From Hyphomicrobiales bacterium (lineage in GTDB: Bacteria > Pseudomonadota > Alphaproteobacteria > Rhizobiales > Beijerinckiaceae), in NCBI GenBank assembly GCA_019075865.1, contig JAGXAN010000008.1, positions 62,001-126,000 on the forward strand: DNA of 64,000 nucleotides. The letters run 5' to 3'. Position 1 is the first letter of the stretch; each line of letters begins with the position of its first letter. Positions 26,781 through 52,974 of the stretch are shown here, in pieces. The position numbers and the translations under genes were made by a program. Below the pieces are notes generated by a model, which was given only the letters and a program-made list of their open reading frames with translations, was not told the DNA's origin and did no database searches.

Positions 26781-27011
26781 ATGTCCAAAACAACAGAAGC
26801 GATCCTGACGGTGCCGGTCGATGCAGCGGCCGATGTGACCGGCTTGGGGCATAACGCGGGGCAGCCAAGCACGCAGACATTGGCGCAGACCATCCTGCGC
26901 CAGATTGAGGCGGAGGAAATCGGTACGCCGACAGTTCCCCGCAAGCCTGAGCGTCCCAGGCGCCCGGTGGATGCGCATTATTGGCCCATTGAGCAAGATT
27001 TGGCGCTGTGA
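26781..27011 (+). CDS. Small protein preceding the GTA terminase (position of GTA g1)
   Basis: 76 residues beginning MSKTTEAILTVPVDAAADVTG, with ribosome-binding site AAGGAGG 8-14 bases before the ATG. It overlaps the start of the terminase gene by 4 bp. Its position corresponds to the small gene g1 (small terminase) that precedes g2 in Rhodobacter-type GTA clusters, but there is no strong motif to prove homology. The Pro/Arg-rich segment (PRKPERPRRPVDAHYWP) near the C-terminus suggests a short interaction peptide. Confidence 0.5.
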   Translation: MSKTTEAILTVPVDAAADVTGLGHNAGQPSTQTLAQTILRQIEAEEIGTPTVPRKPERPRRPVDAHYWPIEQDLAL

Positions 27012-28387
27012 CCGCGCCGGCAGTGCCGGGAGACTGGCCGCAAATGGATTTCACCATGCGCAACCAGTTGGTTCGCATGGCGCGGGAGGGCACGCTCGAT
27101 ACATTTTTGGACGAACTCAGCGATCCGGAAATCGCCTATCTGCTGGGTAGCTGGGAATTTGCAGCGCGGATTGACCAATTGCCACCGGCTTGCGGGCAGG
27201 GCGGAGGGCCGTGGTCAACCTGGGCTGTCATCGGCGGACGTGGGGCAGGCAAAACCCGCACGGGCGCGGAATGGGTGCGGGGGCTGGCGCTTGGGCTGCC
27301 GGGCTTTGCCATGGCACCCACCACCCGGATAGCACTGATTGGCGAAACCTTGAACGATGTGCGCGATGTGATGATCGAAGGTGTTTCGGGGCTTTTGTCG
27401 ATCCATGCCCCGGATGAAATGCCACGTTGGGAGCCTTCGCGCAAAAAGCTCACATGGCCAAACGGCGTGATTGCGCAGGCTTTTTCGGCCGAAGACCCCA
27501 ATTCGCTGCGTGGCCCGCAATTTGAGGCCGCCTGGTGCGATGAACTCGCCAAATGGCGCAAAGCGGAGGAAACCTGGGACATGCTCCAGTTTGGGCTGCG
27601 GCTGGGTAGCCACCCGCGCCAGATCATTACCACCACGCCCCGGCCCACACCTTTGCTGAAACGTCTGTTGCAGGACCCCTCGACATGCATTACCCGCGCC
27701 GCGACCACCGCCAATGCTGCCAATCTGTCCGATAAATTCATGCAAAAAGTGTTGACGGCCTATGGTGGCACCCGGCTTGGCCGCCAGGAACTGCAAGGCG
27801 AGATGATAGAGGACGTAGTTGGTGCGCTATGGACGCGCCAGATGCTTGAAGATGCGCGGGCGGCAAATCCCGCCAATCTGGTGAAAATTGTTGTGGCCGT
27901 GGACCCGCCCGCCTCCTCAGGCAAGCGGGCCGACGCCTGCGGCATTGTCGGCGCTGGCATTGACGCAGGCGGCACCATTCATGTTTTGGCCGACGCCAGC
28001 CTCGCGCAGGCCCGCCCGGCGCAATGGGCGCAGGCCGCCGCCGCGCTCTATCACAAGCTGGAGGCTGATTTGCTGGTCGCCGAGGTCAACCAGGGCGGCG
28101 AGATGGTCGAGCGGGTGCTGCGGGAGGTCGATGCCGGTCTGCCGGTCAAAATGGTGCGCGCCACCCGTGGAAAATATCTTCGCGCCGCACCTGTTGCCCA
28201 GCTTTACGAGCAGGGGCGGGTGCGCCATTGTGGCCCGTTTCCGGCGCTGGAAGATGAATTATGCAGCTTTTGCCCCGATGGCCTGCCCAATGGCAAAAGC
28301 CCCGACCGCATGGACGCCCTCGTCTGGGCGATAACCGCACTGGCGCTGGCAGGTAACGCGGCGGAGCCGAGGGTGCGGCAGGTTTGA
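27008..28387 (+). CDS. GTA-type large terminase (g2-like)
   Basis: 459 residues, starting at GTG in a 4-bp overlap with the preceding gene. The ATPase domain has Walker A GGRGAGKT at residues 76-83 (WAVIGGRGAGKTRTGAEWVRG), Walker B region WCDELAKW, and a coupling motif ITTTPRPTP. The C-terminal nuclease domain includes VVAVDPPASSGKRADACGIV and, near the end, DRMDALVWAITAL with acidic residues typical of terminase nucleases. This is the packaging motor of HK97-like phages and GTAs. The sequence pattern around LGGRGAGKTR and ALIGETLNDVRDVM is the same as in RcGTA-type terminases. Confidence 0.9.
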   Translation: MTAPAVPGDWPQMDFTMRNQLVRMAREGTLDTFLDELSDPEIAYLLGSWEFAARIDQLPPACGQGGGPWSTWAVIGGRGAGKTRTGAEWVRGLALGLPGFAMAPTTRIALIGETLNDVRDVMIEGVSGLLSIHAPDEMPRWEPSRKKLTWPNGVIAQAFSAEDPNSLRGPQFEAAWCDELAKWRKAEETWDMLQFGLRLGSHPRQIITTTPRPTPLLKRLLQDPSTCITRAATTANAANLSDKFMQKVLTAYGGTRLGRQELQGEMIEDVVGALWTRQMLEDARAANPANLVKIVVAVDPPASSGKRADACGIVGAGIDAGGTIHVLADASLAQARPAQWAQAAAALYHKLEADLLVAEVNQGGEMVERVLREVDAGLPVKMVRATRGKYLRAAPVAQLYEQGRVRHCGPFPALEDELCSFCPDGLPNGKSPDRMDALVWAITALALAGNAAEPRVRQV

Positions 28388-28451
28388 GCGGGGCTTGCGC
28401 AAAATAAGAAAGTGTTTACTTCTGTGTGTAGTTATGCTGGAAAGGTGCCAA

Positions 28452-29255
28452 ATGACCCATCTTCCCAACGCCCCCCTTATTTTCACCCTCGGGCTTGTTC
28501 GGTTTCCAACCGTCCCGAACATGGATCGGTTTGTTCCTGCATTCCATGATGCTTTAAGGGATGAAATGCCGCATCTCGACCCACTTAAACTGAATCAGAT
28601 GCAAGTACAGTTCGGGCCGGAAGGCCTAAAGGTAAATAATGACGAACTGCAGGTCTGGCAAATAGCTTCGCCAGATCGAAAGTTCGCCTTCGTATTGACG
28701 CCCGATAGTTTGGTGCTCCATACGAACTCTTATCGCGAGCATCATCAATTTATTGAGATGTTTAAGTCCGCGTTGACCAAGCTTATTGCTGTTCCCGAAA
28801 TTGGTATCAACTGGGTGACAAGCATCGCGATGCGCTACATTGATCTCATCGTTCCGCGCGATGGTGAAAAGCTAAACGATCTATTGGATTCCTCGGTTCT
28901 GCCACCCGCGTTCTCCGGGGTTGCAAATCTTGAAATTGTTGAAGGCCTTTATGTAGCTCAATATCGCACCACAAATGCAAACGTGCGCTTTCAAATTTTG
29001 CGCAATCCGCAAGCTGTGCTTCCGCCGGATGTGAACACCCCTTTGATTCAAAAGAATAATTGGGCATGGCCGCGTCCTGACAACGAATTTGCAGTGGTTG
29101 ATACGGATTGTTCGACACCTTTGGACGGCACGATAGCTCTGGACGTTCCTATAATTTGCGATCATATGAAGGAATTGAGATTCGTTGCCAAATCGATTTT
29201 TGAGCATATCGGCACTGAAGGTGCCAAGAAACGTTGGGAAGGGATTGCGTCATGA
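28452..29255 (+). CDS. TIGR04255-type family protein, first gene of an inserted cassette
   Basis: 267 residues, starting MTHLPNAPLIFTLGLVRFP. The opening L-x-N-A-P-L-x followed by a hydrophobic strand and R-F-P is the characteristic start of the sporadically distributed TIGR04255 family, of unknown function. Further support is the central INWVTSIAMRYIDLI and the C-terminal DHMKELRFVAKSIFE segment, where members end with a helix after D-x-x-H. No enzymatic motif is visible. It is placed 64 bp after the GTA terminase and its stop overlaps the next gene start (ATGA), so it leads a compact three-gene operon. Related genes are often found in variable small operons; a defence or regulatory role is only a guess. 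Confidence 0.65.
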   Translation: MTHLPNAPLIFTLGLVRFPTVPNMDRFVPAFHDALRDEMPHLDPLKLNQMQVQFGPEGLKVNNDELQVWQIASPDRKFAFVLTPDSLVLHTNSYREHHQFIEMFKSALTKLIAVPEIGINWVTSIAMRYIDLIVPRDGEKLNDLLDSSVLPPAFSGVANLEIVEGLYVAQYRTTNANVRFQILRNPQAVLPPDVNTPLIQKNNWAWPRPDNEFAVVDTDCSTPLDGTIALDVPIICDHMKELRFVAKSIFEHIGTEGAKKRWEGIAS

Positions 29256-29788
29256 GCGCTCTGGCATTCGATGATGGTAGCAGGTGGTACCCGCAGGGGC
29301 GGGAACCTGTTTATCTCAGGTTTCTGCCGAAAGGTACCTATGGGGTCGCGCCTAGAACCAATGAAAGTCCCGCGCACCTTTCAGTCCAAAAAATGATCGA
29401 GCATTTACGGGATGGCGGCCTACCTATCACCGCCATTGCGGCTATTGCCCAAGTTGAGCGCAAGACAGTTTATACATGGCTTGACGGCTCAGCCGCGCGC
29501 GATCATAACGCCTCGCGTGTTCAAACGTTGTTCAAAATTCTGGACCGTGACAACATCAACCTTCGTAGTCTGTACCGCGTATGGAACCGCAAACTTGAGC
29601 ATGGCCATTCGATCAGCGAGGTACTATGCGCTGATCCACTGAGCGAATTGACAATCGAGAATGCTTTGCGTGAGCTTGAACCTGCGATTGTAAGACACAC
29701 AGAGCGAGATGCAGCTCGCAGCGTGCCTCATGAGGGCGCTCGAAATCAGATAATCGATGAAACTCCGGAAATCAGTTTTTCACGATAA
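29252..29788 (+). CDS. Helix-turn-helix protein, second gene of the inserted cassette
   Basis: 178 residues, start MSALAFDDGSRWYPQGREPVY coupled to the upstream gene by a 4-bp overlap. A helix-turn-helix is visible at about residues 55-85 (GGLPITAIAAIAQVERKTVYTWLDG), followed by SRVQTLFKILD and a charged C-terminal half with LRSLYRVWNRKLEHG. It looks like a DNA-binding regulator or antitoxin-like protein for the cassette. The N-terminal aromatic segment (YPQGREPVYLRFLPKGTYG) is not part of a usual XRE domain. No family name is certain. Confidence 0.65.
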   Translation: MSALAFDDGSRWYPQGREPVYLRFLPKGTYGVAPRTNESPAHLSVQKMIEHLRDGGLPITAIAAIAQVERKTVYTWLDGSAARDHNASRVQTLFKILDRDNINLRSLYRVWNRKLEHGHSISEVLCADPLSELTIENALRELEPAIVRHTERDAARSVPHEGARNQIIDETPEISFSR

Positions 29789-29804
29789 GGTTTGATTTTG
29801 CTAG

Positions 29805-30638
29805 ATGTCCAGTGATGGCCCGCCGAAATTTGGAGAGGAAGAGGCAAATGCGCTTCTTGCAGCCGGTTGGAGGCAAGGGGCGGTTTTCAAACCCTTTGGC
29901 GATTTGCGTCCTAAAAATGATGAATATTTTTTCGTAGTATGCACGCAATCATGCAGCGTTGTGTCCCCCAACTTGATTCGCGATCCGTTTGTCGAGATAG
30001 CCGAAGGTAAGCCGCTACAACATTATAAGAAAAACAGCCCAGAGGCTATCGGCAAGAACGTAACCAAGTTTCAAATGCCTGTCACGAACGATCAGTTTGC
30101 CGCCCTTGAAGTAGATATCAACACTCGCCGTTTTGTTGCTCGCGATTTGTTTCTCAACCGCGACCCTGAGGATTTTAAGGTATCCGATCCCGCTCGACGC
30201 GAGCTTGCTGGGTGGCTAGCTCGTTATTACTCCAGAGTTGCATTACCCAATGGGTTGGTGCGGAGGCTCAGAAAAAATGCTATTCCTAAACTAAAAAAAA
30301 TCTTCGATAAAAAATACGGAGAAAATAATATTTCAGGTTATGAATTTATTACAAGTATTTCTATGAAAAATGAGCCAAATTGCGAGATAAAAGACGGTGA
30401 ATATTATAAATTTGAACTCTTTATTTTGTGTAAAGATCAAAATAGTGCTAATATTTTTGATTTGGAACTCATAAATATATTTGAAAATGAAATATCGACG
30501 TTTGACGGCATAAAATTCGAAATCCGCGTTCAGTCGGAGGATCAAACTCTCATGTCAGACTTCCGTGGCTACGTCAGATTCTCCGAATGGGACTATCTCA
30601 GCCCGATGTGGGAAACAGCAACGAATCCTGTTGCGTGA
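29805..30638 (+). CDS. Unidentified protein, third gene of the inserted cassette
   Basis: 277 residues; not recognised. The N-terminal part has YFFVVCTQSCSVVSPN, a strand followed by C-x-x-S-C-S, similar in shape to a 'cannot handle now: old-style C-x-x-D-C' pocket seen in some cassette proteins, then PARRELAGWLARYYSRVALPNGLV. The 3' half (about 30280-30540) is clearly AT-rich with runs of A and codons such as AAA, ATA and AAT, unlike the GC-rich neighbours, a sign of recent transfer. It follows the HTH gene by 16 bp. It may be the effector of the three-gene cassette; that is inference. Confidence 0.6.
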   Translation: MSSDGPPKFGEEEANALLAAGWRQGAVFKPFGDLRPKNDEYFFVVCTQSCSVVSPNLIRDPFVEIAEGKPLQHYKKNSPEAIGKNVTKFQMPVTNDQFAALEVDINTRRFVARDLFLNRDPEDFKVSDPARRELAGWLARYYSRVALPNGLVRRLRKNAIPKLKKIFDKKYGENNISGYEFITSISMKNEPNCEIKDGEYYKFELFILCKDQNSANIFDLELINIFENEISTFDGIKFEIRVQSEDQTLMSDFRGYVRFSEWDYLSPMWETATNPVA

Positions 30639-30799: not shown

Positions 30800-32029
30800 A
30801 TGCCTTCACTCTTCTCACGCCTGTTTGGCGCTCGCGCCCCCTTGTCGGTGCCAGATACCAAGGCCTCGCGGGCTGGCAGCCTTTTGGCCATGCATTCGCT
30901 GGGTCTGGCGCGCTGGACGCCGCGCAATTACGTCACGCTCACCCAGCAAGGTTATGAACGCAATGCTGTGGTGTATCGCACCGTGCGCATGATCGCAGAG
31001 GCCGCCGCCTCCGTGCCCTGGCTGGTATTTGAGGGACGCCGCGAGATAACCGCGCATCCGATGCTGGATCTGCTGCAACGCCCCAATCCGGTGGACGTCG
31101 GGCCAACCTTTTTCGAGGCGCTTTTCACCAATCTGCTGCTGTTTGGCAATGCCTATGTCGAGGCGACACTGGTCGAGGGCGCGCCGCGCGAGCTTTATGC
31201 GCTCCGCCCCGATCGCATGGCGCTGGTGCCGGGCAAGAATGGCTGGCCGGTGGCTTTTGACTACATGATTGGCGGCGACAAGGTGCGCTACCCGCTAAAC
31301 GCCGAAGGCATGCAGCAAATTCTGCACCTCAAGCTGTTCCACCCGCTGGATGATCATTATGGCTTTTCACCCATTGCGGCAGCGCAGGTCGCGCTCGACA
31401 TTCACAATGCGGCGGGGGGCTGGAACAAGGCCTTGCTCGATAATTCGGCAAGGCCTTCCGGCGCGCTGGTCTATACCGGCCCCGATGGCGGCCAACTTAC
31501 CGAAAGCCAGTTCGAGCGACTGAAAGCCGAACTCGATGAAAACTTTCAAGGTGCGCGCAATGCGGGCCGGCCATTGCTATTGGAAGGCGGGCTGGATTGG
31601 AAAGCCTTGTCCATGTCCCCCAAGGACATGGATTTCATGGCGGCCAAGGATGGGGCGGCGCGCGAAATTGCATTGGCCTTTGGGGTGCCGCCGCTGGTGC
31701 TGGGAATTCCGGGCGACAATACCTTTTCCAATTATCAGGAGGCCAACCGCGCCTTTTGGCGTCAAACGGTGATACCGCTGATCGCGCGCACCCAGAAGAG
31801 CTTTGCCGCCTGGGTGCGGCCAGCCTATGGCCCCTTCACCTTCGATTATAATGTCGATCGGATCGAGGCACTGGCGGATGAGCGGGCGACCGAATGGAGC
31901 CGCGTTGATGGCGCCAATTTCCTGACCATTGACGAAAAGCGTGAAGCGCTGGGCTATGGCGCGCTTGCCGCAAAGGACATGGCCGATTTGCCCGGCGTCA
32001 CGCCCCCGCGCCCAAAAGGTGGCGCATGA
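30800..32029 (+). CDS. HK97-family portal protein (GTA g3-like)
   Basis: 409 residues with the HK97 portal pattern: AVVYRTVRMIAEAAASVPWLVFEG near residue 60, HPMLDLLQRPNP, LFTNLLLFGNAYVEAT, and LAFGVPPLVLGIPGDNTFSNYQEANRAFWRQTVIPL in the C-terminal half. It forms the dodecameric ring through which the terminase loads DNA. It follows a terminator hairpin and has an AAAAGGA ribosome-binding site. In intact GTA clusters it directly follows the terminase; here about 2.4 kb of other DNA intervenes. Confidence 0.93.
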   Translation: MPSLFSRLFGARAPLSVPDTKASRAGSLLAMHSLGLARWTPRNYVTLTQQGYERNAVVYRTVRMIAEAAASVPWLVFEGRREITAHPMLDLLQRPNPVDVGPTFFEALFTNLLLFGNAYVEATLVEGAPRELYALRPDRMALVPGKNGWPVAFDYMIGGDKVRYPLNAEGMQQILHLKLFHPLDDHYGFSPIAAAQVALDIHNAAGGWNKALLDNSARPSGALVYTGPDGGQLTESQFERLKAELDENFQGARNAGRPLLLEGGLDWKALSMSPKDMDFMAAKDGAAREIALAFGVPPLVLGIPGDNTFSNYQEANRAFWRQTVIPLIARTQKSFAAWVRPAYGPFTFDYNVDRIEALADERATEWSRVDGANFLTIDEKREALGYGALAAKDMADLPGVTPPRPKGGA

Positions 32030-32214: not shown

Positions 32215-32396
32215 AATTTCTTCGACCGCTCCGCTTCGGGGCCAAGCCGGAATCAACCCTTGCGCGGCCCATGCCCAATGACGCGCCCAGCCCTGAACTT
32301 ATCATCCGCCATTTTGTTCGCGTGCTCGAATCCATCACGGCGAGCCATTCCGGCGCGTCGCATTTGCGCGGCCTGCTGACAAGGGAGAAGCCTTGA
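32211..32396 (+). CDS. Small protein in the GTA head operon, function unknown
   Basis: 61 residues (MKFLRPLRFGAKPESTLARP to SGASHLRGLLTREKP), overlapping its neighbours by 4 bp and 1 bp. The central SPELIIRHFVRVLESITASH looks like an amphipathic helix. No family recognised. Tight coupling within a head-gene operon argues that it is a real gene. Confidence 0.45.
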   Translation: MKFLRPLRFGAKPESTLARPMPNDAPSPELIIRHFVRVLESITASHSGASHLRGLLTREKP

Positions 32397-32986
32397 TGGG
32401 ACAATATAAACCAAATCCACCGTTGCAATGCGCAACCATGACCGTCGAATTGGAGACCAAACACGCGCCCGGCGCGATCTCCGGCCTGACAAGGGATGGT
32501 TCGTTCGAGGGTTACGCCAGCCTTTTCGGGCTGGTGGATATGGGGCGCGATCTCGTCGTCCCCGGCGCTTTCAAGGCGTCGCTGGCCAAGCGCGGTGCCA
32601 GCGGCATCAAAATGCTGTGGGCGCATGATGCGACCGAACCCATCGGCACCTGGGTCACGATTGTCGAGGATAATCGTGGCCTGAAAGTGCGCGGCCAATT
32701 GAATCTGGCCGTGGCGCGGGCGCGTGAGATTTTGGCCCTGATGCGCGATGGCGCGCTCGACGGCCTGTCGATCGGCTTTCGCACAGAGCGCTCGCAACGC
32801 GACAAGGAAACCGGCGTGCGCCGCCTGCTGAAGCTCGATTTATGGGAAATCTCGATTGTGACTTTCCCGATGTTGCCGCAGGCGCGGGTCTCGGCCGTCA
32901 AGCGTGCGGTTGCGCCCCCCAACCCGCGGATGCAGCCCGATACGCTGGCAAACGCCATCCGTAAAGCCACCAGTGTCTTTCGTTAA
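32396..32986 (+). CDS. HK97-family prohead protease (GTA g4-like)
   Basis: About 196 residues from the ATG at 32396; the conserved part begins at the internal ATG encoding MTVELETKHAPGAISG. Motifs of the HK97 (S78) protease are visible: FEGYASLFGLVDMGRDLVVPGAF, IKMLWAHDATEPIGTW with the catalytic His, and GALDGLSIGFRTE with the catalytic Ser. LKLDLWEISIVTFPMLPQA is the conserved C-terminal strand region with Glu. It would cleave the N-terminal scaffold domain of the capsid protein. Its substrate gene directly downstream is truncated. Confidence 0.92.
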   Translation: MGQYKPNPPLQCATMTVELETKHAPGAISGLTRDGSFEGYASLFGLVDMGRDLVVPGAFKASLAKRGASGIKMLWAHDATEPIGTWVTIVEDNRGLKVRGQLNLAVARAREILALMRDGALDGLSIGFRTERSQRDKETGVRRLLKLDLWEISIVTFPMLPQARVSAVKRAVAPPNPRMQPDTLANAIRKATSVFR

Positions 32987-33010: not shown

Positions 33011-33319
33011 ATGAATATGCAGAATCAGGATTTGAAGTCCGCCAAGAGCCTTGAAACCAAGGCGGTGAATGCGGACGTTGCTGGCGCGTTTGAGGATTTT
33101 CATCGCACCTTCGCCGCTTTCAAGGAAACCAACGACGAGCGTCTCGACCAGATCGAAACCCGCATGGGTGCCGATGTAATCACCGAGGAAAAGCTGGCGC
33201 GTATCGATCGCTCGCTGGATGACAACAAGCGGCGTCTTGACATGCTGATGGTGGAAAAATCCCGCCCCTTTTTGGCCCGTTCCGACAAGGCCAATGACGA
33301 CGAATCCCGCGAGCTGTAA
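33011..33319 (+). pseudogene. Major capsid protein (GTA g5-like), 5' fragment cut by prophage insertion
   Basis: 102 codons are left. The protein (MNMQNQDLKSAKSLETKAVN, FEDFHRTFAAFKETNDERLDQIETRMGADV, ARIDRSLDDNKRRLDML) is the charged coiled-coil N-terminal region found in HK97/GTA capsid proteins, normally followed by about 300 residues of capsid core. Here it stops at ESREL. The last two codons (CTG TAA) span the junction at 33314/33315, where the Mu-like prophage begins with TGT, so the phage end supplies the stop codon. The rest of the gene is expected beyond the prophage's right end. The upstream protease and portal genes look intact. Confidence 0.8.
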
Positions 33320-33621
33320 CACGCTGGATCATATGGCACAGGCGGGATTACGTGGGATTTGGCGGAATTTGACGCAGTTACAATAGGTTGCGAAAATTTT
33401 GGCAATTTGCCGCGCAGGATCATATGGCATTGAAAATCGAGGGCGAAAATTTTTCGCTTGTAGCAAAATCAAGGCTTTCAACTTCACAGACCTGCGGAAC
33501 TCGGACGTCGGCCGATGAGCTGGAAATGGCTAACATTTGCGCAAAACCAAGGCTTTGCGGGAAAACCCACCCGCCAGCGATGCCATTTAACTCGGACGTG
33601 GATTTGGGCTTGAAAGCCGTT
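33315..33621. repeat. Prophage left end with repeated motifs (putative transposase-binding region)
   Basis: No gene is seen in this 307-bp stretch. It contains four pairs of direct repeats: GGATCATATGGCA (33326-33338 and 33417-33429), GCGAAAATTTT (33390-33400, 33443-33453), GCAAAA-Y-CAAGGCTTT (33463-33478, 33541-33556) and AACTCGGACGT (33498-33508, 33589-33599). The first and last pairs are each 91 bp apart. Three short GG(G/A)ATT units at ~10-bp steps lie at 33344-33371. In Mu, the left end carries three MuA-binding sites with unequal spacing, so these repeats are the natural candidates here. Confidence 0.6.
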
Positions 33622-33849
33622 TTAATGACGTTTTGAGGCAGGTGGCGGCACGGGTGAGCTGTCGCCACCCCCTTCTTTCTGGCACCTTGTAGTGGGCGGC
33701 AATCCACATCTCGAGTTAAGCTTTTTCCACCCGACGCAATGGCCAGCTGTGTCGCGATATCCTGGGCCTCCCGCGCAGCCGCAGCCATCACAGGCCAGCG
33801 CCGTGGCCGTCATCCATAATGTCAGTGCTCCCACCCAAAACAATCGCAT
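33622..33849 (-). CDS. Small cysteine-rich secreted protein behind the repressor
   Basis: 75 residues from the ATG at 33849 (a start at 33873 would overlap the repressor gene). MRLFWVGALTLWMTATALA is a clear signal peptide with cleavage after ALA; the mature peptide has a CDGCGCAGG motif, three more cysteines and a Pro/Ser-rich tail. It lies 7 bp downstream of the repressor gene on the same strand, so it should be made in the lysogen. No family recognised. Periplasmic or surface location fits a lysogenic-conversion or superinfection-exclusion role, which is speculation. Confidence 0.5.
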   Translation of the reverse strand: MRLFWVGALTLWMTATALACDGCGCAGGPGYRDTAGHCVGWKKLNSRCGLPPTTRCQKEGGGDSSPVPPPASKRH

Positions 33850-33856
33850 GTGCCAC

Positions 33857-34576
33857 CTATAGACTGCGTCCAAACCACCGCACCCGGCCCTCGACCGTCA
33901 ACGTATCCACTTCGCCAGGCGGGACGGTTTCGGGCTCATAGCGCTCGCGATTGTCGCTGATCAACAGCAATGAGTGATCGCGCCGCATCTGCACCCGTTT
34001 AACAATCACCAGGCCGCCGAGGGTCAGCACATAAATGCCATTGTCGATGATCTGGGTGACGCTGCGATCCACCAGCAACAGGTCGCCGTCGCGAATGGTG
34101 GGCTCCATGCTGTCACCCACGGCGGTCAGTGCCTGGGCGCGGTTCGGCGTAATGCCAAGCCGCCGCAGCCAATCGGTGCGAAACCCCAGCATTTGCGGCG
34201 GCTCATGCTGACTGGCCAATCGGCCATTGCCAGCGCTGGCTTCCACATCGAGGCGCGGAATGAAAGTGAAGTCCGAGGGCTCAATGTCAGGATAAGCGCG
34301 CTGGCTACCAGGCGGCGGAATTTCATTATCATCATAGAGAAAATCGGTGACGTTGACTTTGCAGGCTTGGGCGATAGCCAGCAGCTGCTGGAGCGGCGGG
34401 GCCGAGGCTCCAGAAATCCAGCGATACAGACTGCTGCCTGCAATCCCTGATATTTCAGCAACATACGACACGCCACCAGCCGCCGTTATGGCCTTATCCA
34501 AACGCGCACCCACCTTTTTGGCGAGCAAATTTGTCTCTGTTTGAGGTTGTAAATTCTTACTCTGCGCGCTTGACAT
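33857..34576 (-). CDS. S24-type (C/LexA-like) phage repressor
   Basis: 239 residues. The N-terminal HTH of the XRE type spans about residues 25-70 (YVAEISGIAGSSLYRWISGASAP, LLAIAQACKVNVTDFL). The C-terminal S24 peptidase/dimerisation domain contains ALTAVGDSMEPTIRDGDLLLVDRS with the nucleophilic Ser and VIVKRVQ with the general-base Lys, so it could undergo RecA-stimulated self-cleavage like LexA/lambda CI. It is the leftmost leftward gene, divergent from ner, and its start lies inside the operator palindrome region. It is the likely master repressor of lysogeny; unlike Mu c it carries an SOS-type domain. Confidence 0.9.
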   Translation of the reverse strand: MSSAQSKNLQPQTETNLLAKKVGARLDKAITAAGGVSYVAEISGIAGSSLYRWISGASAPPLQQLLAIAQACKVNVTDFLYDDNEIPPPGSQRAYPDIEPSDFTFIPRLDVEASAGNGRLASQHEPPQMLGFRTDWLRRLGITPNRAQALTAVGDSMEPTIRDGDLLLVDRSVTQIIDNGIYVLTLGGLVIVKRVQMRRDHSLLLISDNRERYEPETVPPGEVDTLTVEGRVRWFGRSL

Positions 34577-34615
34577 TTATCATTCCTGATAATAATTTAC
34601 ATAAATTGATAATTT
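34570..34615. promoter_or_regulatory. Early promoter and operator region between repressor and ner
   Basis: Rightward TTGACA (34570-34575) and TAATTT (34593-34598) are separated by 17 bp, giving a strong early promoter. Within it lies the palindrome TTATCA-TTCC-TGATAA (34577-34592), which also covers the leftward ribosome-binding site of the repressor (AGGAA). A second TGATAA half-site is at 34607-34612 and an AAATT-GAT-AATTT palindrome at 34603-34615. These are the obvious binding sites for the S24 repressor and/or Ner. The stretch is markedly AT-rich compared with the surroundings. Confidence 0.7.
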
Positions 34616-34630
34616 TACAGGATTGGGTAA

Positions 34631-34909
34631 ATGGCACCGCGACTGGAACCGGTCTTTCTGACGCCCTGGCACCCGGCGGACATCATGTCCGCCATCAAAA
34701 AGAAGGGGGCGACATTGTCGTCGCTTGCCATCGCGGCCGGCGTGCAAAAACAGGTGGTTTCGACCGCCATGTACCGGCCATACGCGCGCGGCGAGCGCAT
34801 CATTGCTGATTTTCTTGGCATTCACCCCTCCGTAATCTGGCCGGATCGCTATTCCCTGGCTGGAACGCCCATGCCCCGTGCTCGAGCAAATAAGGACACG
34901 GCGGCATGA
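34631..34909 (+). CDS. ner: Ner-like DNA-binding protein
   Basis: 92 residues; WHPADIMSAIKKKGATLSSLAIAAGV followed by ADFLGIHPSVIWPDRY is the Ner/Nlp (sugar-fermentation-stimulation/winged Mu Ner) pattern. In Mu, Ner binds the early region and turns down early and repressor transcription. It is the first gene rightward of the operator region, as in Mu. It overlaps the ParB-like gene by 4 bp. Confidence 0.88.
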   Translation: MAPRLEPVFLTPWHPADIMSAIKKKGATLSSLAIAAGVQKQVVSTAMYRPYARGERIIADFLGIHPSVIWPDRYSLAGTPMPRARANKDTAA

Positions 34910-35733
34910 ATGAGTCAAATTCGACCTCGCAGCTCATCGCTATTGACGATATTACCATTGGTGAGAGGCTGACACCCATCTCGCAGCCCTATGTGGAGCG
35001 ACTGGTCGCCTCGATTGAGCAGATTGGCCTGCTGCAGCCGATCGTGCTGCGGGAATATGGTTCCGGCTATCTGTTGATCGCCGGGGCGCATCGCATCGCC
35101 GCCTATCGGGCGCTGAGCAGAAACACCATTGAAGCGCGGGTGATTGAGGCAAGTGAAGCCATTGCCGCCATTGCGGAAATTGATGAAAACCTGATCCGGC
35201 GCGGCCTCTCCGCCTTTGATGAGGGCGTATCGTTGCGCGAACGCAAGGCGTTCTATGAAGCGGCATTTCCCGATGCCCGCCACGGCGGTGACCGGCGCAA
35301 GAAAAAGCAAGAGGGCACATTGTTCCCACTTGAAACAAAACGCTTCACGAGTGCCGTGGCCGACAAGGTGGGCTGGAGCGAGCGGACCATCAAAAAGCGC
35401 CTGCAATTGGCCAATAGCCTTGACCCCGAGGCGGTGCACATCGCCCGCGAAACCGGGCTGATCGCCAATGAAAGCCAGATGCTCAAGCTGGCCGGATATA
35501 CCCCAACAGAGCAGGTCAAACTGATGAAAGCCGTGCGCGACAAATCGCGCAGCTCCATCGGTCAGGCCGAGCATGATCTGGGCTGGAAAGTCGCCAAACC
35601 AGCTCAGTCCTACGCCGACAAATTAGCTGCCGCCTTCGGGTCACTGCTGATCACGGCGGAGTTGGTCCAGCTGGAGGCGATGAAGCGCCAGCTCGACGCG
35701 GCCATCATTCAGAAAAAGAGGGGCAATTCATGA
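34906..35733 (+). CDS. ParB-like nuclease-domain / DNA-binding protein
   Basis: 275 residues. The N-terminal ParB/sulfiredoxin-like domain is seen in ISQPYVERLVASIEQIGLLQPIVLREYGSGYLLIAGAHRIAAYRAL, with GAHRIAA corresponding to the CTP/nucleotide-binding G-x-R-R-x-x-A box. Next come AIAEIDENLIRRGLSAFDEG and an HTH region (AVADKVGWSERTIKKRLQLA). It lies between ner and the transposase gene, where several Mu-like phages carry a ParB-type gene. The function could be regulation or DNA organisation; no ParA partner or parS-like repeats were noticed. Confidence 0.85.
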   Translation: MNESNSTSQLIAIDDITIGERLTPISQPYVERLVASIEQIGLLQPIVLREYGSGYLLIAGAHRIAAYRALSRNTIEARVIEASEAIAAIAEIDENLIRRGLSAFDEGVSLRERKAFYEAAFPDARHGGDRRKKKQEGTLFPLETKRFTSAVADKVGWSERTIKKRLQLANSLDPEAVHIARETGLIANESQMLKLAGYTPTEQVKLMKAVRDKSRSSIGQAEHDLGWKVAKPAQSYADKLAAAFGSLLITAELVQLEAMKRQLDAAIIQKKRGNS

Positions 35734-35849
35734 GTTTCATCCCGCCAGAACCAGCGCGGCCCGATTGGATCGACGCCATCACCTTCGGCTGTCTCGTCGT
35801 CATGTTGATGATCGAAGCCAGCATTGTCGCTCTGTTTTGCTGGTTTTGA
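35730..35849 (+). CDS. Small single-span membrane protein
   Basis: 39 residues encoded from an ATG overlapping the ParB-like stop: MSFIPPEPARPDWIDAITFG then a hydrophobic helix to the end (LVVMLMIEASIVALFCWF). Its next neighbour begins 1 bp after its stop. Short and without homologue that I know, but the coupling and membrane helix suggest it is real. Confidence 0.4.
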   Translation: MSFIPPEPARPDWIDAITFGCLVVMLMIEASIVALFCWF

Positions 35850-35850
35850 C

Positions 35851-36081
35851 ATGAAGAGACAGCGGTTGAACGTCATCCTGATGGTCGAGTATCCGCGCGC
35901 CTGGCGTGTGCGGCAGCCGGGCACCTATACAATGCTCAATATCCCGAAAGTGGCCGGCGTCACGCTGACCCTATTGCCCAATTTGAGCATGCACGTTCTG
36001 GCCTTCCCGCCAGATTGTTACTGGAATTTGGGCCTGCAAGGTGCCTGGGATTTGTGTCTGCAGGCCGGGGGTGACCAATGA
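35851..36081 (+). CDS. Phage early protein, unknown
   Basis: 76 residues from the ATG at 35851: MKRQRLNVILMVEYPRAWRV, with alternating hydrophobic strands (AGVTLTLLPNLSMHVLAFPP) suggesting a small beta-rich fold. The gene overlaps the next by 4 bp. No family recognised. Confidence 0.45.
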   Translation: MKRQRLNVILMVEYPRAWRVRQPGTYTMLNIPKVAGVTLTLLPNLSMHVLAFPPDCYWNLGLQGAWDLCLQAGGDQ

Positions 36082-36362
36082 CCAAGCCCCTGCATATCCT
36101 GCGCTGGACCGATCACACCATGGTGGATGGCAAGATTGAGATTGCCGGCGAAATTGCCGCCATTGATCCGGTCTATCTCACCATCGCCCGCGACCAGCCT
36201 GGCTTCCTTGGCCGCCGTCAATTGATGTGGGTGCTGCTGCGAGCCGCCATTGAAGAGGTCTCGCAGGCTGGCAGCATCGCTGTTATTCGGCTGCCCGTCG
36301 CCCTTTTTGCCTTTGCTTGCCAAACCGATCTGGCTGGCGCGGAACCGGCAGGGCGCGCATGA
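36078..36362 (+). CDS. Phage early protein, unknown
   Basis: 94 residues (MTKPLHILRWTDHTMVDGKI to DLAGAEPAGRA). It has a hydrophobic central part (LGRRQLMWVLLRAAIEEVSQ) but no motif that I can name. Start and stop are coupled by 4-bp overlaps to the previous gene and to the transposase gene, so it is expected to be expressed with them. Confidence 0.45.
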   Translation: MTKPLHILRWTDHTMVDGKIEIAGEIAAIDPVYLTIARDQPGFLGRRQLMWVLLRAAIEEVSQAGSIAVIRLPVALFAFACQTDLAGAEPAGRA

Positions 36363-38605
36363 GAAAAACACCTCAACCAACGTCTTGGTATAGCGCCGCC
36401 GAGCTCGCCGGCCTGCATCTGCCCGGCCTGCCAACCACGGCGCGGCGCATGGCCGATTTCATCGCCCGTGAGGGCTGGGACGCCGACAGCGCCCGTGCCC
36501 GGCCCCGTCTTGGGCGGGGCGGTGGCATGGAATACCGCCTCGACCTCATCCCCACCGGGCCGCAATTGCTGCTGGCCGCGCGGGCAACAGGTGAAGCCCC
36601 GTTGCCAATGATCGCGGCCGCCGCCGCCGAACCGGGCGCAGAGGCTCTAAATGCTGCGGCCGCCAGTGCTCGCGACGCGCGACTGGCAATCGTCCATGCC
36701 GCCAATGCCTATGTCGCTGGCTACCCACGCGGCGCATTGGCCAATGATACGGCCGCCCTGGCATTGTTTGTCGCGCTCTATAATGCCCGCTCCATAAAAA
36801 TGCCCGCCAGCGCCTTGACCGAGGTGCCAAACCTGTCCTTGCGCAGCCTGCAGCGCTGGATTGCAGCCACAAGGTCCGCCAATACCAGCGCACTGGCGGT
36901 GGATCGTGGCGCGGCGCGGCGCGGACGCGGCACCCTCGACAGTGCCAATGACGGGGCGGTTAAGCTGCACATTCTGGCCTTGACGGCACGCCAGCCGCAT
37001 CTCTCGGCGCATCATATCATGACCATGGTGCGCGACCAGTTTGGCGACCGGCTGGAAGTGGAAGGCACGTATCTGCCCGTGCCGCCCTTGCGCACCTTTC
37101 AAAGTGCTTTGAAAGCATGGAAAACCCAGCATCACGTCGCACTTACCGCGATCACCAATCCGGATGCCTACAAATCCAAATTCCGGCTTGCAGGCACGGC
37201 CACGGACCGGTTTTGCACCGCGATCAACGCCCTCTGGATGATCGACGCATCACCGGCAGATGTGCTGTGCCTGGATGGTCGCTCCTCGGTTTATGTCGCC
37301 ATCGACCTGTTTTCGCGCCGTCTGCAAATCTATGTCTCCAAAACCCCGCGCGCCAGCGCCGTGGCGCTGCTGATCCGGCGCGCCATTGCTGAATGGGGCA
37401 TGCCCGATGCCATCAAGACCGATAATGGCTCGGATTTCGTCGCCCGCGACATCGTCCGCCTGTTTGCCGCGCTGAACATCGAAACCATCACCTGCCGCGC
37501 CTTCCACCCGGAGGAAAAGGCCCATGTCGAGCGCGCCATCGGGACTTTCCAGCGCGATTTATGCCCGACACTGCCTGGCTTCATTGGGCACTCGGTCAAG
37601 GATCGCAAGGTGATCGAAGAGCGCAAGGCCTTTGCCGCTCGGCTCGGTCTGCCGGATGACCGCACTTTCTGCGTCGAACTCACCGCCAGTGAGTTACAGG
37701 CATATTGCGATCGCTGGGCCAATGAGCGCTACCAGCACCGCCCACATGCCGGCCTCGACGGGGCCACACCCTTTGCCATTGCCCAGCGCCACGCCGCGCA
37801 GGTGCGCGCCATGCCCGAATTGCGCGCCCTCGACATGCTTCTGACCCCGGTGGCGTCCGGCAATGGCCTGCGCATCATGGGCAAACAGGGCGTGCGCATC
37901 GAGGGCGATTATTATCTCTGCCCGCATGTGCTGCCAGGCACTGAAACCTTGGTACGAATGGACCCCAATGATATGGGCCGTGCCCTGCTTTTCACGCCCG
38001 ACGGCGCGCAATATCTGGGCGAGGCCGTCTGCCCGACTTTGGCCGGCGTTGATCCGGTGGCGGCGGTGCAGGCGGCCAAACAGGCGCAGGCCGAGATCCT
38101 GTTTGAGGGAACCCGGCATATCCGGGCGCAGATGCGGCGGATCAAGCCGCGTGACATGGTGGACGCCATGCTGCGCCAGTCGGCCCGCGACAATGGCACA
38201 TTGGTGCCGTTTCCAGCCCCATTGGCCGCCTATGAAACCCCGCAATTGCAAGCTGCGAGCCAAGCGGCAAGCCACGTTGCCAGCAATACCGCCAGCCAGG
38301 CTACCACCCCCACCAGTTTTTTGACGTTTGACGGATCATCCACCCCGGCCAGTGCCGCTGACATCGCCGCCCTTGCAGCGCAGGTTGAGGCAGATGCCAT
38401 GGCCGCCGCCTCCAATGTCATTGCCCTGCCAGAGCGCCCGATCGAGCGCTACCGCCGCGCCTTCGCCCTCGAGGAGGCTATGTCACGCGGCGAACCCGTG
38501 GATCCCGAGGCTGCCCTGTGGCTCGGGCGCTATCAGACCAGTGCCGAGTATCTCACGCATTCACAGATGTTCGCCTCATTCGGGCGGGATTGGCTGTTTG
38601 CATGA
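36359..38605 (+). CDS. MuA-type transposase (DDE integrase)
   Basis: 748 residues from the ATG at 36359. The N-terminus has a MuA HTH domain (SWYSAAELAGLHLPGLPTTARRMADFIAREGW), then binding domains. The catalytic core shows WMIDAS with D296, TDNGSDF with D355 and HVERAIGTFQRD with E391, the DDE triad spacing of MuA. The beta-barrel follows (GVRIEGDYYLCP...GTETLVRMDPNDMGRALLF). The C-terminal ~130 residues are Ala/Ser-rich and end in a helical region that in MuA binds MuB and ClpX. It catalyses strand transfer for integration and replicative transposition. Confidence 0.95.
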   Translation: MRKTPQPTSWYSAAELAGLHLPGLPTTARRMADFIAREGWDADSARARPRLGRGGGMEYRLDLIPTGPQLLLAARATGEAPLPMIAAAAAEPGAEALNAAAASARDARLAIVHAANAYVAGYPRGALANDTAALALFVALYNARSIKMPASALTEVPNLSLRSLQRWIAATRSANTSALAVDRGAARRGRGTLDSANDGAVKLHILALTARQPHLSAHHIMTMVRDQFGDRLEVEGTYLPVPPLRTFQSALKAWKTQHHVALTAITNPDAYKSKFRLAGTATDRFCTAINALWMIDASPADVLCLDGRSSVYVAIDLFSRRLQIYVSKTPRASAVALLIRRAIAEWGMPDAIKTDNGSDFVARDIVRLFAALNIETITCRAFHPEEKAHVERAIGTFQRDLCPTLPGFIGHSVKDRKVIEERKAFAARLGLPDDRTFCVELTASELQAYCDRWANERYQHRPHAGLDGATPFAIAQRHAAQVRAMPELRALDMLLTPVASGNGLRIMGKQGVRIEGDYYLCPHVLPGTETLVRMDPNDMGRALLFTPDGAQYLGEAVCPTLAGVDPVAAVQAAKQAQAEILFEGTRHIRAQMRRIKPRDMVDAMLRQSARDNGTLVPFPAPLAAYETPQLQAASQAASHVASNTASQATTPTSFLTFDGSSTPASAADIAALAAQVEADAMAAASNVIALPERPIERYRRAFALEEAMSRGEPVDPEAALWLGRYQTSAEYLTHSQMFASFGRDWLFA

Positions 38606-38652
38606 AGCGTTAGGGCCAGCGTACCGGCCAATCATCTGAAACCTCAAACAAA

Positions 38653-38687
38653 AGCCCGGCCCAGATCGCAAATCAGGGGGCCGGGCT
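38653..38687 (+). other. Strong hairpin between transposase and MuB genes
   Basis: AGCCCGGCCC (38653-38662) and GGGCCGGGCT (38678-38687) are perfect 10-bp complementary arms with a 15-base loop. There is no T run; GGAG of the MuB ribosome-binding site follows 3 bases later. It may be an attenuator, RNA-processing stem or a device that shields the MuB start. Confidence 0.5.
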
Positions 38688-38702
38688 CACGGAGTAAACA
38701 TA

Positions 38703-39491
38703 ATGAATATGCCCATGCCAAATGTCAATCGGACGCCAGCGCCGACTGACCCTATGGTTAACATCTCACCCATAGCGCCCACCCGCAATATCGCTGCATT
38801 TTCGGGGCTGGTTACCCGGCTGATCACCCGTCGCCCGGATGTACCCGGCCTTGGCTGCTTCTATGGCCGCGCCGGTCTCGGCAAGAGCAAGGCCGCGACC
38901 TTCGGGGCCAATATGGCCCGCGCCACCTACGTGGAATGTAACCAATTCACCACCGCCAAGAGCCTGCTTTTGCGCATTCTGTCGGAAATGGGCGTGCACA
39001 AGGCCAAAGGCTCGGTGCCGGATCTGCTCGATCTGGCCACCGAACGCATGGCCATGGACCCATCGCGGCTATTGATCATCGATGAGGCGCACTGGATTGC
39101 CCACAAGCGCTTCATCGACATCGCCCGCGCGCTGCATGACCTGTCGCGCGCCCCGATCATCCTGATCGGCGAAGAAATGCTGCCAACCGCGCTCGAAACC
39201 CACGACCGCGTGCACAGCCGCATCCTTGAATGGGTCGAAGCCTCGCCCTGTAATCTCGAGGATATGATGCACCTGATCCGCATTCGTGCGCCGGGCCTCG
39301 TCCTGGCACCGGAGTTGATCAATCTGCTGCTGGACCGCACCCGTGGCAATGCCCGCCGCATCGTCGTCAACCTCGCCGATATTGTCGAGGAAAGCCGCCG
39401 CCTCGGGGTCAACAAGATCGGTCTTGATCAATATGACGCCGCCCGCATCCGCGTCCACAAGGCTCCCACCGTCGTACGGAGGGCTGTCTGA
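38703..39491 (+). CDS. MuB-like AAA+ ATPase (target selection)
   Basis: 262 residues. Walker A is GRAGLGKS at residues 55-62 (CFYGRAGLGKSKAATFGAN), Walker B is RLLIIDEAHWI, sensor-like region PIILIGEEMLP, and NARRIVVNLADIVEESRR in the C-terminal helical part. In Mu, MuB polymerises on DNA, delivers targets to MuA and gives target immunity. Its gene directly follows the transposase, separated by the hairpin, and abuts the next gene (1-bp overlap). Confidence 0.92.
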   Translation: MNMPMPNVNRTPAPTDPMVNISPIAPTRNIAAFSGLVTRLITRRPDVPGLGCFYGRAGLGKSKAATFGANMARATYVECNQFTTAKSLLLRILSEMGVHKAKGSVPDLLDLATERMAMDPSRLLIIDEAHWIAHKRFIDIARALHDLSRAPIILIGEEMLPTALETHDRVHSRILEWVEASPCNLEDMMHLIRIRAPGLVLAPELINLLLDRTRGNARRIVVNLADIVEESRRLGVNKIGLDQYDAARIRVHKAPTVVRRAV

Positions 39492-40102
39492 TGGCTCATA
39501 TCCTGCGCCGGGAAGGCCCCAACGTCATCATCATGCCGGGCCGCGATGAAATCTGGAAGTCAATGATGTACCTGACCAACCTTAGCGGCAGCTTCAGCCG
39601 CGCCGAGGTGGTCGCCAAGGCTATGAATAGCCGCGAATATGTGCACCGCTACCTAAAGGCGCTGATCAAAGCCGGTTATGCCGAGCAGCTGCCGGTGCAG
39701 CCCAAGCGCGGCACGCGGTTCCGGGTGATCCGCACGCAGATCTCGACGCCGCGCGTGCGTGCCGATGGCACCGATTTGGGCGAGCCGATCAATGTCACGC
39801 TGTGGCGCACGATGCGCATGCTCAAAACCTTCACGGCTCCGGAGCTATGCGCCCATGCCAGTCTGCCGGAGCGTCCGGTCAAATTGACCACGGCCGCCGC
39901 CTATCTGTGCCATCTCGAAGCGGCCGGGCTGTTGACCATTTTGGCCCCCGGCCAGCGCCGGGGTGCCAAGGCACATCGCCGATTTGGCCTGATCGGGACC
40001 CCCGGTGGTCAGGCCCCGCGCGTGCTCAAGGCCGATGCGGTCTACGACCCAAACACCGGCAATTTGCTGTCTGTGTCATCGCATGATGCGGAGGCATGCT
40101 GA
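39491..40102 (+). CDS. Phage early DNA-binding protein with winged-helix segments
   Basis: 203 residues. Two possible winged-helix units are seen: SFSRAEVVAKAMNSREYVHRYLKALIKAGYAEQL and MLKTFTAPELCAHASLPERPVKLTTAAAYLCHLEAAGLL, each followed by a basic wing (QPKRGTRFRVI; GQRRGAKAHRRFGLI). A role in early regulation or in replication is likely. Not assigned to a named family. Confidence 0.55.
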   Translation: MAHILRREGPNVIIMPGRDEIWKSMMYLTNLSGSFSRAEVVAKAMNSREYVHRYLKALIKAGYAEQLPVQPKRGTRFRVIRTQISTPRVRADGTDLGEPINVTLWRTMRMLKTFTAPELCAHASLPERPVKLTTAAAYLCHLEAAGLLTILAPGQRRGAKAHRRFGLIGTPGGQAPRVLKADAVYDPNTGNLLSVSSHDAEAC

Positions 40103-40479
40103 TGGCCCCGATGATCGATTACGTCGCCAAATCGCGCGCGGCCTGGGGCATCCTGCCCGCATGGGTGGAAACCCTCGCCGATGCGGTCAATGCCTCCAGC
40201 CAGGTCGACGTATCTGTGCGGCTCGGGCTGTCCAACAGCCTGATCTCGCAGGTGCTGTCCAACAGCTATCGGGGCGACATGGCCGCTGTCTCGCGCCGCG
40301 TTGCCGGTGCCCTGATGGGCGAGCGCGTCACCTGCCCGGTGATGGGCGATATCGGCCGCGATCATTGCGAGCGTGAACAGGGCCGGCCCTTCGCCGCAAC
40401 CTCGGCCTTGCGCACGCATTTGTTCCACGCCTGCCGGTCCGGCTGCCCCAACGCCAAACCAACCCCGTTAAAAGGATGA
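40102..40479 (+). CDS. Phage early HTH protein
   Basis: About 125 residues; either ATG 40096 or 40102 could start it, the latter overlapping the previous stop. VSVRLGLSNSLISQVLSNSYRGDMAAVSRRVAGAL looks like an XRE-type recognition helix pair. The second half has cysteines (TCPVMGDIGRDHCE, HACRSGCPNAK) that could bind a metal. Role unknown; probably transcriptional. Confidence 0.5.
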   Translation: MAPMIDYVAKSRAAWGILPAWVETLADAVNASSQVDVSVRLGLSNSLISQVLSNSYRGDMAAVSRRVAGALMGERVTCPVMGDIGRDHCEREQGRPFAATSALRTHLFHACRSGCPNAKPTPLKG

Positions 40480-40826
40480 GTATCATGTCAAACCACGATG
40501 ATTTGCTGGTCGGTATCAGCCAGCTCGACACATTGAGCCACAAGCTGGCGGTGCTGCACCATGCCCTCGACGCGGTGCGGCGCGGCAGCCACGAATTGAC
40601 CGGGCCGGGCCTGCGCGCTTTTTGCGCGGCGCTGGAAGCCAGCGTGGCCAGAGCCGCCCACCTCGAAGGCCAGCTGGCCGAGGCGCGGGAACTGGCGTAT
40701 CCGGAACCCAAACCCTTTGGCGTGGTGGTATCGCTGTTTGGTGGCCCCATTCCCTCGGCTGCCAAATTGCCGGTGCCTCCGGTCCGCTCGATCTACGGCG
40801 ACCCCACCAGTGATGGAGCTGCGTGA
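40476..40826 (+). CDS. Phage early protein, helical, unknown
   Basis: About 116 residues, starting ATGA-coupled to the previous gene. Heptad-like helices (LLVGISQLDTLSHKLAVLHHAL and FCAALEASVARAAHLEGQLAEA) suggest a coiled coil, followed by a Pro-rich tail. No motif recognised. Confidence 0.45.
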   Translation: MSIMSNHDDLLVGISQLDTLSHKLAVLHHALDAVRRGSHELTGPGLRAFCAALEASVARAAHLEGQLAEARELAYPEPKPFGVVVSLFGGPIPSAAKLPVPPVRSIYGDPTSDGAA

Positions 40827-41503
40827 TGGCGCTCCCCTCCCTGCATCGCACCCTGCGGGCCTGTGCGCAGTTTCATGGTCTCGATCCCGCCCGGATCGAG
40901 GCTCTCAGCACCCGGCCCGGAACAGACGCCGATCTCGCGCCCGCCCTGCATCTCTATTGCTGGGCCGCCGACATCATGACCACCCACAACCGCCTCGCGA
41001 TCGGCATTTATGTCGGCATGGATGCTGCCACCGTGGCAAAGTCGATTGCGGCAGTTGAGGCGGAGCGCGGGGCGAGCCCGGACCTGACCGAGCGCCACGA
41101 CGAACTGCTGCTCGAAATCCACGCCGAGGCCGAGGCGCTGGCGCAGATGCGCATAACCGAGGCGCCGGAGGATGATCCATATATCATCGCCGCGCGCCTC
41201 AATGGCCCGGCGCGGGGGGCTTACGGCGTCCCCCTTACTGAATTGCGGGTGCTGGCGCGCAGTTTTGTCGGTATTGCCGCCGAATTGCGGGCCGCCGCCG
41301 CTCAGGTCGAGCGTCTGACGGCTGCTATTGTGGAGCAGCGCAGCCGCGCATCGGCAGCTGCATCCGCGCCCCAGCCCGTCAACCCATCCGCGATCAGTGC
41401 CGCCAAGGCGGCCGTGGCCCGCGCCCTTTACACCCCCGGCGAGCGTCATGCCCGTCAGGCTCTCGCCCGTTTGCAACAGGAGAAGACCCATGTCCAGGCC
41501 TAA
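40826..41503 (+). CDS. Phage early protein with DnaA-like helical region (tentative)
   Basis: 225 residues. LHLYCWAADIMTTHNRLAIGIYVGMDAATVAKSIAAVE has the helix lengths and the spacing of a DnaA C-terminal DNA-binding helix-turn-helix, though the classic DHSTV box is replaced by DAATV. The rest is Ala/Glu-rich helix (AELRAAAAQVERLTAAIVEQ). It may recruit replication proteins; this is a low-confidence reading. The 3' end overlaps the DUF3164-type gene by 14 bp. Confidence 0.4.
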   Translation: MALPSLHRTLRACAQFHGLDPARIEALSTRPGTDADLAPALHLYCWAADIMTTHNRLAIGIYVGMDAATVAKSIAAVEAERGASPDLTERHDELLLEIHAEAEALAQMRITEAPEDDPYIIAARLNGPARGAYGVPLTELRVLARSFVGIAAELRAAAAQVERLTAAIVEQRSRASAAASAPQPVNPSAISAAKAAVARALYTPGERHARQALARLQQEKTHVQA

Positions 41504-42026
41504 GCTTTCAAAGACCCTTCAAACCCCGATCTACGTGCCACAGGATGAATTTACGGCACGCGGTTTCCTGACCCTGATCGGCGAGCATGCCCGCGCTGTC
41601 ACCCGGCTCGAGGCCGACATGAACGATGCCATTGCCAGTGCCAAGGCGCAGGCTACGGCTAAGGCCAAGCCCCACCAGGACGCGATTGCGGTGCTCACCT
41701 CGGGCCTGCGCACCTGGTGCGAGGCCAACCGCGCCCGCCTTACCGATAATCACAAGGTAAAATTCGCCGATCTGGGCACCGGCAAGGTGCTGTGGCGCAC
41801 GCGGCCACCCGCCGTGTCGATCACCGGCAAGGTTGAAGTGCTGCTGGAGCGGCTGCGCGCGCTGCACCTGCCGCAATTTATCCGCACCAGCGAGACCCTG
41901 AATAAGGAGGCCATGCTGGCCGATCCGGAATTGGCGGTCACGGTGCCCGGCATCCGCATCGCCTCGGCCGGCGAGGATTTTGAAGCGGTGCCCTTCCAGA
42001 CCGAACTGGCGGGAGCGGCATCATGA
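41490..42026 (+). CDS. DUF3164 family phage protein
   Basis: 178 residues starting MSRPKLSKTLQTPIYVPQDE. The downstream LRTWCEANRARLTDNHKVKFADLGTGKVLWRTRPP and LRALHLPQFIRTSETLNKEAMLADP match the DUF3164 pattern common in Mu-like phages, where it lies in the early operon. These proteins somewhat resemble Gam-type DNA-end-binding proteins in layout (helical N-terminus, then a F-x-x-G-x-x-x-W-R strand region), so a Gam-like role is possible. Confidence 0.75.
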   Translation: MSRPKLSKTLQTPIYVPQDEFTARGFLTLIGEHARAVTRLEADMNDAIASAKAQATAKAKPHQDAIAVLTSGLRTWCEANRARLTDNHKVKFADLGTGKVLWRTRPPAVSITGKVEVLLERLRALHLPQFIRTSETLNKEAMLADPELAVTVPGIRIASAGEDFEAVPFQTELAGAAS

Positions 42027-42160
42027 AGGCGTTTCTTATGATCCTGATCGGGCTGGCCATGGTCTATGCCTTCATCACCCAGCCGCAAACCGGCTGGCTA
42101 TTCATCGGCCTTGGCGCGGTGATGGGCGTGGTATCCACCCTTGGCGGGAGGCGTAAATGA
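42023..42160 (+). CDS. Small membrane protein in the early operon
   Basis: 45 residues: MKAFLMILIGLAMVYAFITQ, a short loop, then WLFIGLGAVMGVVSTL and a basic end (GGRRK). Two hydrophobic helices. It overlaps the DUF3164-type gene and the gp16-type gene by 4 bp each, so it is almost certainly translated. Function unknown. Confidence 0.5.
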   Translation: MKAFLMILIGLAMVYAFITQPQTGWLFIGLGAVMGVVSTLGGRRK

Positions 42161-42834: not shown

Positions 42835-43187
42835 TCGGCTCCCTCGACGATCTCTCACGCGATGAGCTGCTGATACTGGCGCGGCGCGGGGCTCCCAGCC
42901 CCGCATCGATCGCCCATTTGCAGCACGAGCATTTGTTGACCCGCACCCATGCGGCTTATGGGCGCTGGCAGGCGTCCTCGGCAGCCGCATCGGCGGGGGC
43001 CAAGCGGGCGCGTTTGTTGGCAAACCACGATCATTTCGGCCCACGCTTTTCAACGGCGCTCGCCAGCGCCAATGCCCTGCTGGCTATCGCCAAGACCGAT
43101 TGGCTGATCTACCGCCGCGCCAAAGCCAAGAGTGACCAAGCCCTGCGGGCGGCAGTGCGTCTGGGAAGAGAAGAGGGAGAAGTGTGA
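42831..43187 (+). CDS. Small basic phage protein, unknown
   Basis: 118 residues from the ATG at 42831 (4-bp overlap with the gp16-type gene). Starts MIGSLDDLSRDELLILARRG and continues as Arg/Ala-rich helices (AAASAGAKRARLLANHDH). No motif recognised. The stop overlaps the MazG-like start. Confidence 0.45.
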   Translation: MIGSLDDLSRDELLILARRGAPSPASIAHLQHEHLLTRTHAAYGRWQASSAAASAGAKRARLLANHDHFGPRFSTALASANALLAIAKTDWLIYRRAKAKSDQALRAAVRLGREEGEV

Positions 43188-43693: not shown

Positions 43694-43695
43694 TG

Positions 43696-44100: not shown

Positions 44101-44129
44101 AGTTCTCTCCATCAGGAAGGTCATCAATC

Positions 44130-45088: not shown

Positions 45089-45118
45089 CGCCCCTTTAAG
45101 CCCCCTCAATAGGCCACC

Positions 45119-52953: not shown

Positions 52954-52974
52954 GGTTGCCGCCAATGTGGGTTC

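Follow-up and report, generated by a model that had tools for sequence, protein, structure and literature searches.

A Mu-like prophage interrupts the major capsid gene, g5, of a gene transfer agent (GTA) cluster that resembles RcGTA of Rhodobacter capsulatus, and 835 bp of that gene are missing exactly between the two ends of the phage. The lesion is likely to have arisen by a Mu-type insertion into g5 accompanied by an adjacent deletion linked to transposition. An initial annotation of this DNA had proposed that a Mu-like prophage split the GTA capsid gene. The interruption of g5 and the presence of g6 to g15 beyond the phage bear this out, whereas the clean insertion that was envisaged, which excision could reverse, does not fit the right-hand junction. 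The stretch of DNA that was analyzed, referred to below as the window, is 64,000 bases long, and a further 20 kb was read rightward of its end (positions prefixed L002). Two genomes of the same genus, G001 and G002, in which the GTA cluster has been assembled on contigs of 32,956 and 341,454 bases, served as siblings for comparison. The features discussed are collected in Table 1.

Table 1. Location of the window, the GTA genes and the principal prophage features. Positions are those of the window unless a contig or L002 is named.
Feature	Position	Strand	Basis or remark
Studied window	contig C5:62001-126000		part of a 3.29-Mb, 18-contig genome, 99% complete
GTA g2, terminase large subunit	27008..28387	+	Pfam Terminase_6N/6C; syntenic in 15/15 relative loci
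Three-ORF module between g2 and g3	28395..30638	+	TIGR04255 protein; weak HTH match; third ORF without match
GTA g3, portal	30800..32029	+	Pfam Phage_portal; solved RcGTA portal Rcc01684, E 1e-119
GTA g4, prohead protease	32393..32986	+	Pfam Peptidase_S78, TIGR01543
5' remnant of g5, major capsid gene	33011..33319	+	102-codon ORF; host DNA to 33314
Mu-like prophage	33315..64000, on to L002:8001 (contig C5:134001)	+	38,687 bp in total
Prophage repressor (HTH plus S24 peptidase)	33857..34576	-	family matches
MuA-like DDE transposase	36317..38605	+	Pfam rve, Mu-transpos_C; phrog_310, E 1.1e-100
MuB-like ATPase	38703..39491	+	Pfam AAA_22/TniB; phrog_296, DNA transposition protein
Prophage major head protein, Mu gpT type	54503..55399	+	phrog_371; solved Mu gpT-domain proteins, E 4.3e-80

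The interrupted locus is an RcGTA-type cluster, judged from its genes

Judged from its genes, the locus into which the prophage is set is a genuine RcGTA-type GTA cluster. Genes g2, g3 and g4 lie to the left of the prophage. The GTA genes resume past the right phage end and continue through to g15, the "megatron" gene. There, curated NCBIfam models identify g6, g7, g9, g12, g13, g14 and g15, and three of these models name GTA or an Rcc protein. The GTA_megatron model scores g15 at 1639 bits, against a cut-off of 800, while the assignments of g8, g10 and g11 rest on their position and on matches in relatives. An ordered head-tail block therefore extends from g2 to g15, except for the broken g5 and three ORFs between g2 and g3; g1 was not identified. 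Homology to the structural proteins of RcGTA is seen in the portal, in GTA_megatron and in the sibling capsid, the g5 product of G002 matching the solved RcGTA capsid Rcc01687 with an E value of 1.7e-91. The locus is also distributed as a conserved, inherited one rather than as a sporadic prophage. Matches to the g5 capsid were found in at least 273 of 397 genomes of the order, some of them distant phage homologues, and the g4 protease is present in 32 of 41 genomes, the present genome being included in both counts.

The cluster shares with RcGTA the order and families of g2, g3, g4 and g6 to g15, together with related capsid and portal proteins. It differs from RcGTA in that g5 is interrupted and mostly deleted, in the three-ORF module between g2 and g3, and in carrying, between g5 and the connector gene g6, a trypsin-like ORF in antisense that is common to its relatives. 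The latter, a trypsin-like protease ORF at L002:8157-9068 on the minus strand, has a homologue in eight of the nine relative loci that span g5 and g6, with two copies in G013 and G024 and none in G036. The three-ORF module is missing from all 15 relative loci, in which g2 and g3 are spaced within 392 bp, and by this comparison it is placed outside the GTA core. PADLOC returned no match in the module, nor in two prophage ORFs. The description of the head genes as being in canonical order thus holds for the sequence g2, g3, g4, but three ORFs without GTA matches intervene. No internal stops were found in the thirteen genes g2 to g4 and g6 to g15 as they were cut for comparison, g11 and g12 having been excised from arbitrary 5' points.

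Most of g5 is missing between the phage ends

In the intact gene, the Pfam capsid domain PF05065 occupies residues 132-417 of 420. What remains of g5 to the left of the prophage is a frame of 102 codons that ends in CTG TAA and, as had been read from the letters at the outset, its stop codon is donated by the left end of the phage, TGTAAC at 33315. The identification of this short frame as a GTA g5-like capsid is upheld by the alignment of its host part with the N-terminal ~99 residues of the complete g5 in G002 and G001, and by the match of the G002 protein to Rcc01687 noted above. Relatives without the phage were expected to possess an intact g5, and this is the case for both siblings, neither of which has a match to the transposase of this prophage. 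The core of the proposal, that the prophage interrupts a GTA capsid gene, therefore stands.

The situation to the right of the prophage is not the one that had been predicted. Instead of the remaining ~300 codons of g5, only the last 42 are found there, and comparison with both siblings shows a loss of 835 bp, or about 278 of 420 codons. Since the rest of g5 is not at the right end, a clean insertion is ruled out. The 102-codon frame has no Pfam domain and contains none of the capsid domain, and the C-terminal stub, which covers profile positions 236-280 of 280, gives the sole PF05065 match in the genome. As measured against this profile, nearly the entire capsid fold is lost. A second capsid gene that might rescue the defect was sought across the genome and none with PF05065 was found, although this profile would miss other capsid families, such as that of the prophage's own head protein.

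The prophage is Mu-like and single copy

The prophage, the right end of which lies 8,001 bases beyond the end of the window, has the same orientation as the GTA operon. It is Mu-like in encoding a MuA-type DDE transposase and a MuB-type ATPase and in possessing TG...CA ends with related end sequences. In addition to the genes listed in Table 1, family matches identify a ParB-like protein, an endolysin, a terminase, a portal, a head protease, baseplate, fiber, sheath and tape measure proteins and a DNA methyltransferase, and by this gene content the prophage looks complete. Its gpT-type head protein belongs to a family unrelated to GTA g5. A search with the transposase protein across genomes of the bacterial family and another with the right-end DNA each gave one match in this genome, so that the prophage is present in single copy, with no second copy or inversion partner detected by either search.

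The gene set is one shared with transposable Mu-like phages, but no close relative exists among the named phages, all 21 matched phage records falling below 60% identity. In the phage collection, Rhodobacter phage RC1 and Rhodovulum phage RS1 have the nearest transposases, with 38% identity over 96%. Viral contigs contained no match to the exact left junction, and a transposase search among them confirmed no relative. Within the bacterial family, 13 of 149 genomes, this one included, have a strong relative of MuA (E below 1e-150), and 32 of the 149 have a match at E 0.001.

The phage ends are precise and lack a target duplication

At the left junction, host DNA stops at 33314 in GCGAGC and the phage starts TGTAACACGC. 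The right end of the phage, which on the opposite strand reads TGTAGCGCGCAAAATCAAATGGCA, terminates at L002:8001 and is followed by CTTGGGGATCCGC, running on into the last 42 codons of g5. The right end starts TGTAGCGCG, as do those of all five relatives in which both ends were located, the relatives' right ends having been found by this motif alone; the left end is similar in sequence to ends found in related prophages. Six such prophages were examined, of which the sixth, in G130, leaves its contig before a right end. The five with both ends located are each bounded by a perfect 5-bp duplication (acacg, atttt, cgatc, ggcat or tgaac), and the rule of a 5-bp duplication rests on these five, the left end in G100 having been located through its duplication (tgaac). 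A scan for end pairs, which rewarded duplications, ranked the true pair of the present prophage third and that of G110 sixth, and placed the G100 pair outside the top six. The present prophage has no such duplication. A copy of the 5 bp preceding 33315 had been predicted at its right end, but the flanks are CGAGC on the left and CTTGG on the right.

Origin of the lesion

Two features of the junctions bear on how the lesion arose. The loss runs exactly to the phage terminus, which is the mark either of an adjacent deletion or of recombination between two copies, and the absence of a 5-bp duplication is explained by the deletion. According to a published account (PMC2723962), replicative elements, including Mu, give rise to adjacent deletions that begin exactly at the ends of the element. 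The present deletion likewise starts at the terminus of the element, with no duplication across it, although recombination between two copies would look identical. It shares with transposon-promoted adjacent deletions of the Shapiro type, which arise by intramolecular replicative transposition, both the exact starting point at an element end and the removal of neighboring DNA, and it differs from them in being inferred here from sequence alone and in having struck a GTA gene.

These considerations lead us to favor, with reasonable confidence, a Mu-type insertion and a transposition-linked adjacent deletion in g5. A temperate Mu-like phage would have entered g5 by transposition; no other RcGTA-type capsid gene was found in the genome. 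In the same event or in a later one, one phage end would have been joined to a second target inside g5, and the DNA between the join points would have been lost exactly to the phage terminus. This would leave an N-terminal fragment, the prophage and the 42 C-terminal codons, from which the capsid fold could not be made.

It is possible, but in our estimation a good deal less likely, that two copies of the same phage inserted separately in g5 in the same orientation and that homologous recombination then removed one copy together with the 835 bp. The structure produced would be identical, with intact outer ends, no matching duplication and one copy remaining, and the deletion step bears no trace that distinguishes the two routes. 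Such a history requires, however, two insertions within 835 bp of one gene, and Mu-like phages restrict transposition close to a resident copy. Mobile elements are typical sites of false joins, and rearranged or foreign molecules might have been joined at the phage ends during assembly. This seems very improbable given that one contig of 233,763 bases spans the whole of a single-copy prophage and that a single GTA cluster supplies both flanks, arranged and oriented as in the siblings. Least credible of all is that the middle of g5 had already been lost by gene decay when the phage arrived, for even if insertion into a capsid pseudogene might meet no counter-selection, a later insertion would be flanked by a 5-bp duplication and its ends would not coincide exactly with both edges of the gap, and the other 13 GTA genes examined are without internal stops and without excess changes.

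Consequences for GTA production and age of the event

GTA production is probably abolished in the lysogen. With no other PF05065 match in the genome, the assembly of particles should fail. As the junctions read, the lesion is irreversible, because with most of g5 missing and no target duplication the gene could not be regained even if the phage excised precisely.

The event looks recent. With G018 as outgroup, the remaining GTA proteins carry 258 unique changes in the present genome and 264 in G002, over 3711 sites, and with two further outgroups the corresponding values are 174 and 205, and 243 and 277. With none of the three outgroups, therefore, have the remaining GTA proteins changed faster than those of G002, in a comparison that covers GTA proteins only and in which single genes scatter both ways. 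These counts speak against decay of the remaining GTA proteins, and the lack of excess change fits a recent event.

One might imagine that the phage gains from silencing the GTA, by avoiding lysis for GTA release and competition for resources, so that the knockout was selected, and that the N-terminal fragment, if made, might block assembly in trans after GTA genes return from kin. We regard this as highly speculative and doubt that it is correct.

GTA genes as targets

Nothing in the genomes compared points to preferential targeting of GTA genes by this group of phages. At about 15 kb, the cluster makes up about 0.5% of a 3.3-Mb target, so that a single such hit, given many lysogens, calls for no special cause. 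Strong relatives of MuA (E below 1e-150) are found in 12 other genomes of the family. Nine of these have a long GTA-like g5 match, which in five lies on the same contig as MuA, at a distance of about 0.1 to 1.8 Mb, and in four on a separate contig. As for the remaining three, G105 has just a 34% g5 match and G003 and G164 have none. In a study of Citromicrobium (PMC12486242), GTA-like genes are reported to have neutral transposition-target scores.

Halves of g5 on one contig with a gap of prophage size between them were found in none of 22 low-scoring or multi-match genomes chosen among the matches listed. The sample did not extend to further low scorers, among them G358, G388 and G516. Several other kinds of incomplete g5 match were encountered. 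In G206 (C126:20591-21780) and G491 (C2:21522-22749) the match falls into two pieces lying side by side, a pattern that a frameshift or a sequencing error would give. In G356 the two pieces (residues 16-167 and 188-419) are at the ends of contigs C385 and C404, and this break may reflect either the assembly or the insertion of another mobile element. Single pieces of g5 at contig ends, which may or may not mark a split gene, were seen in G373 and G174.

Implications

Among the papers listed, a literature search yielded no report that we recognized of a Mu-like prophage within a GTA cluster. Mu insertions and adjacent deletions are ordinary, well-known events, and it is the GTA target that makes this case useful, in a modest way. 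It concerns a single genome, and a lone hit within a GTA cluster of about 15 kb is the sort of outcome expected of rare random insertion. GTAs are domesticated phages, and there is debate over the reason for their retention. The present lineage, in which the capsid gene has apparently only just been lost and the other GTA genes retained, provides a natural knockout. The case suggests that a transposable phage can irreversibly remove GTA function in one or two events. If selection on particle production is what keeps GTA genes, those that remain in this lineage should now begin to decay.
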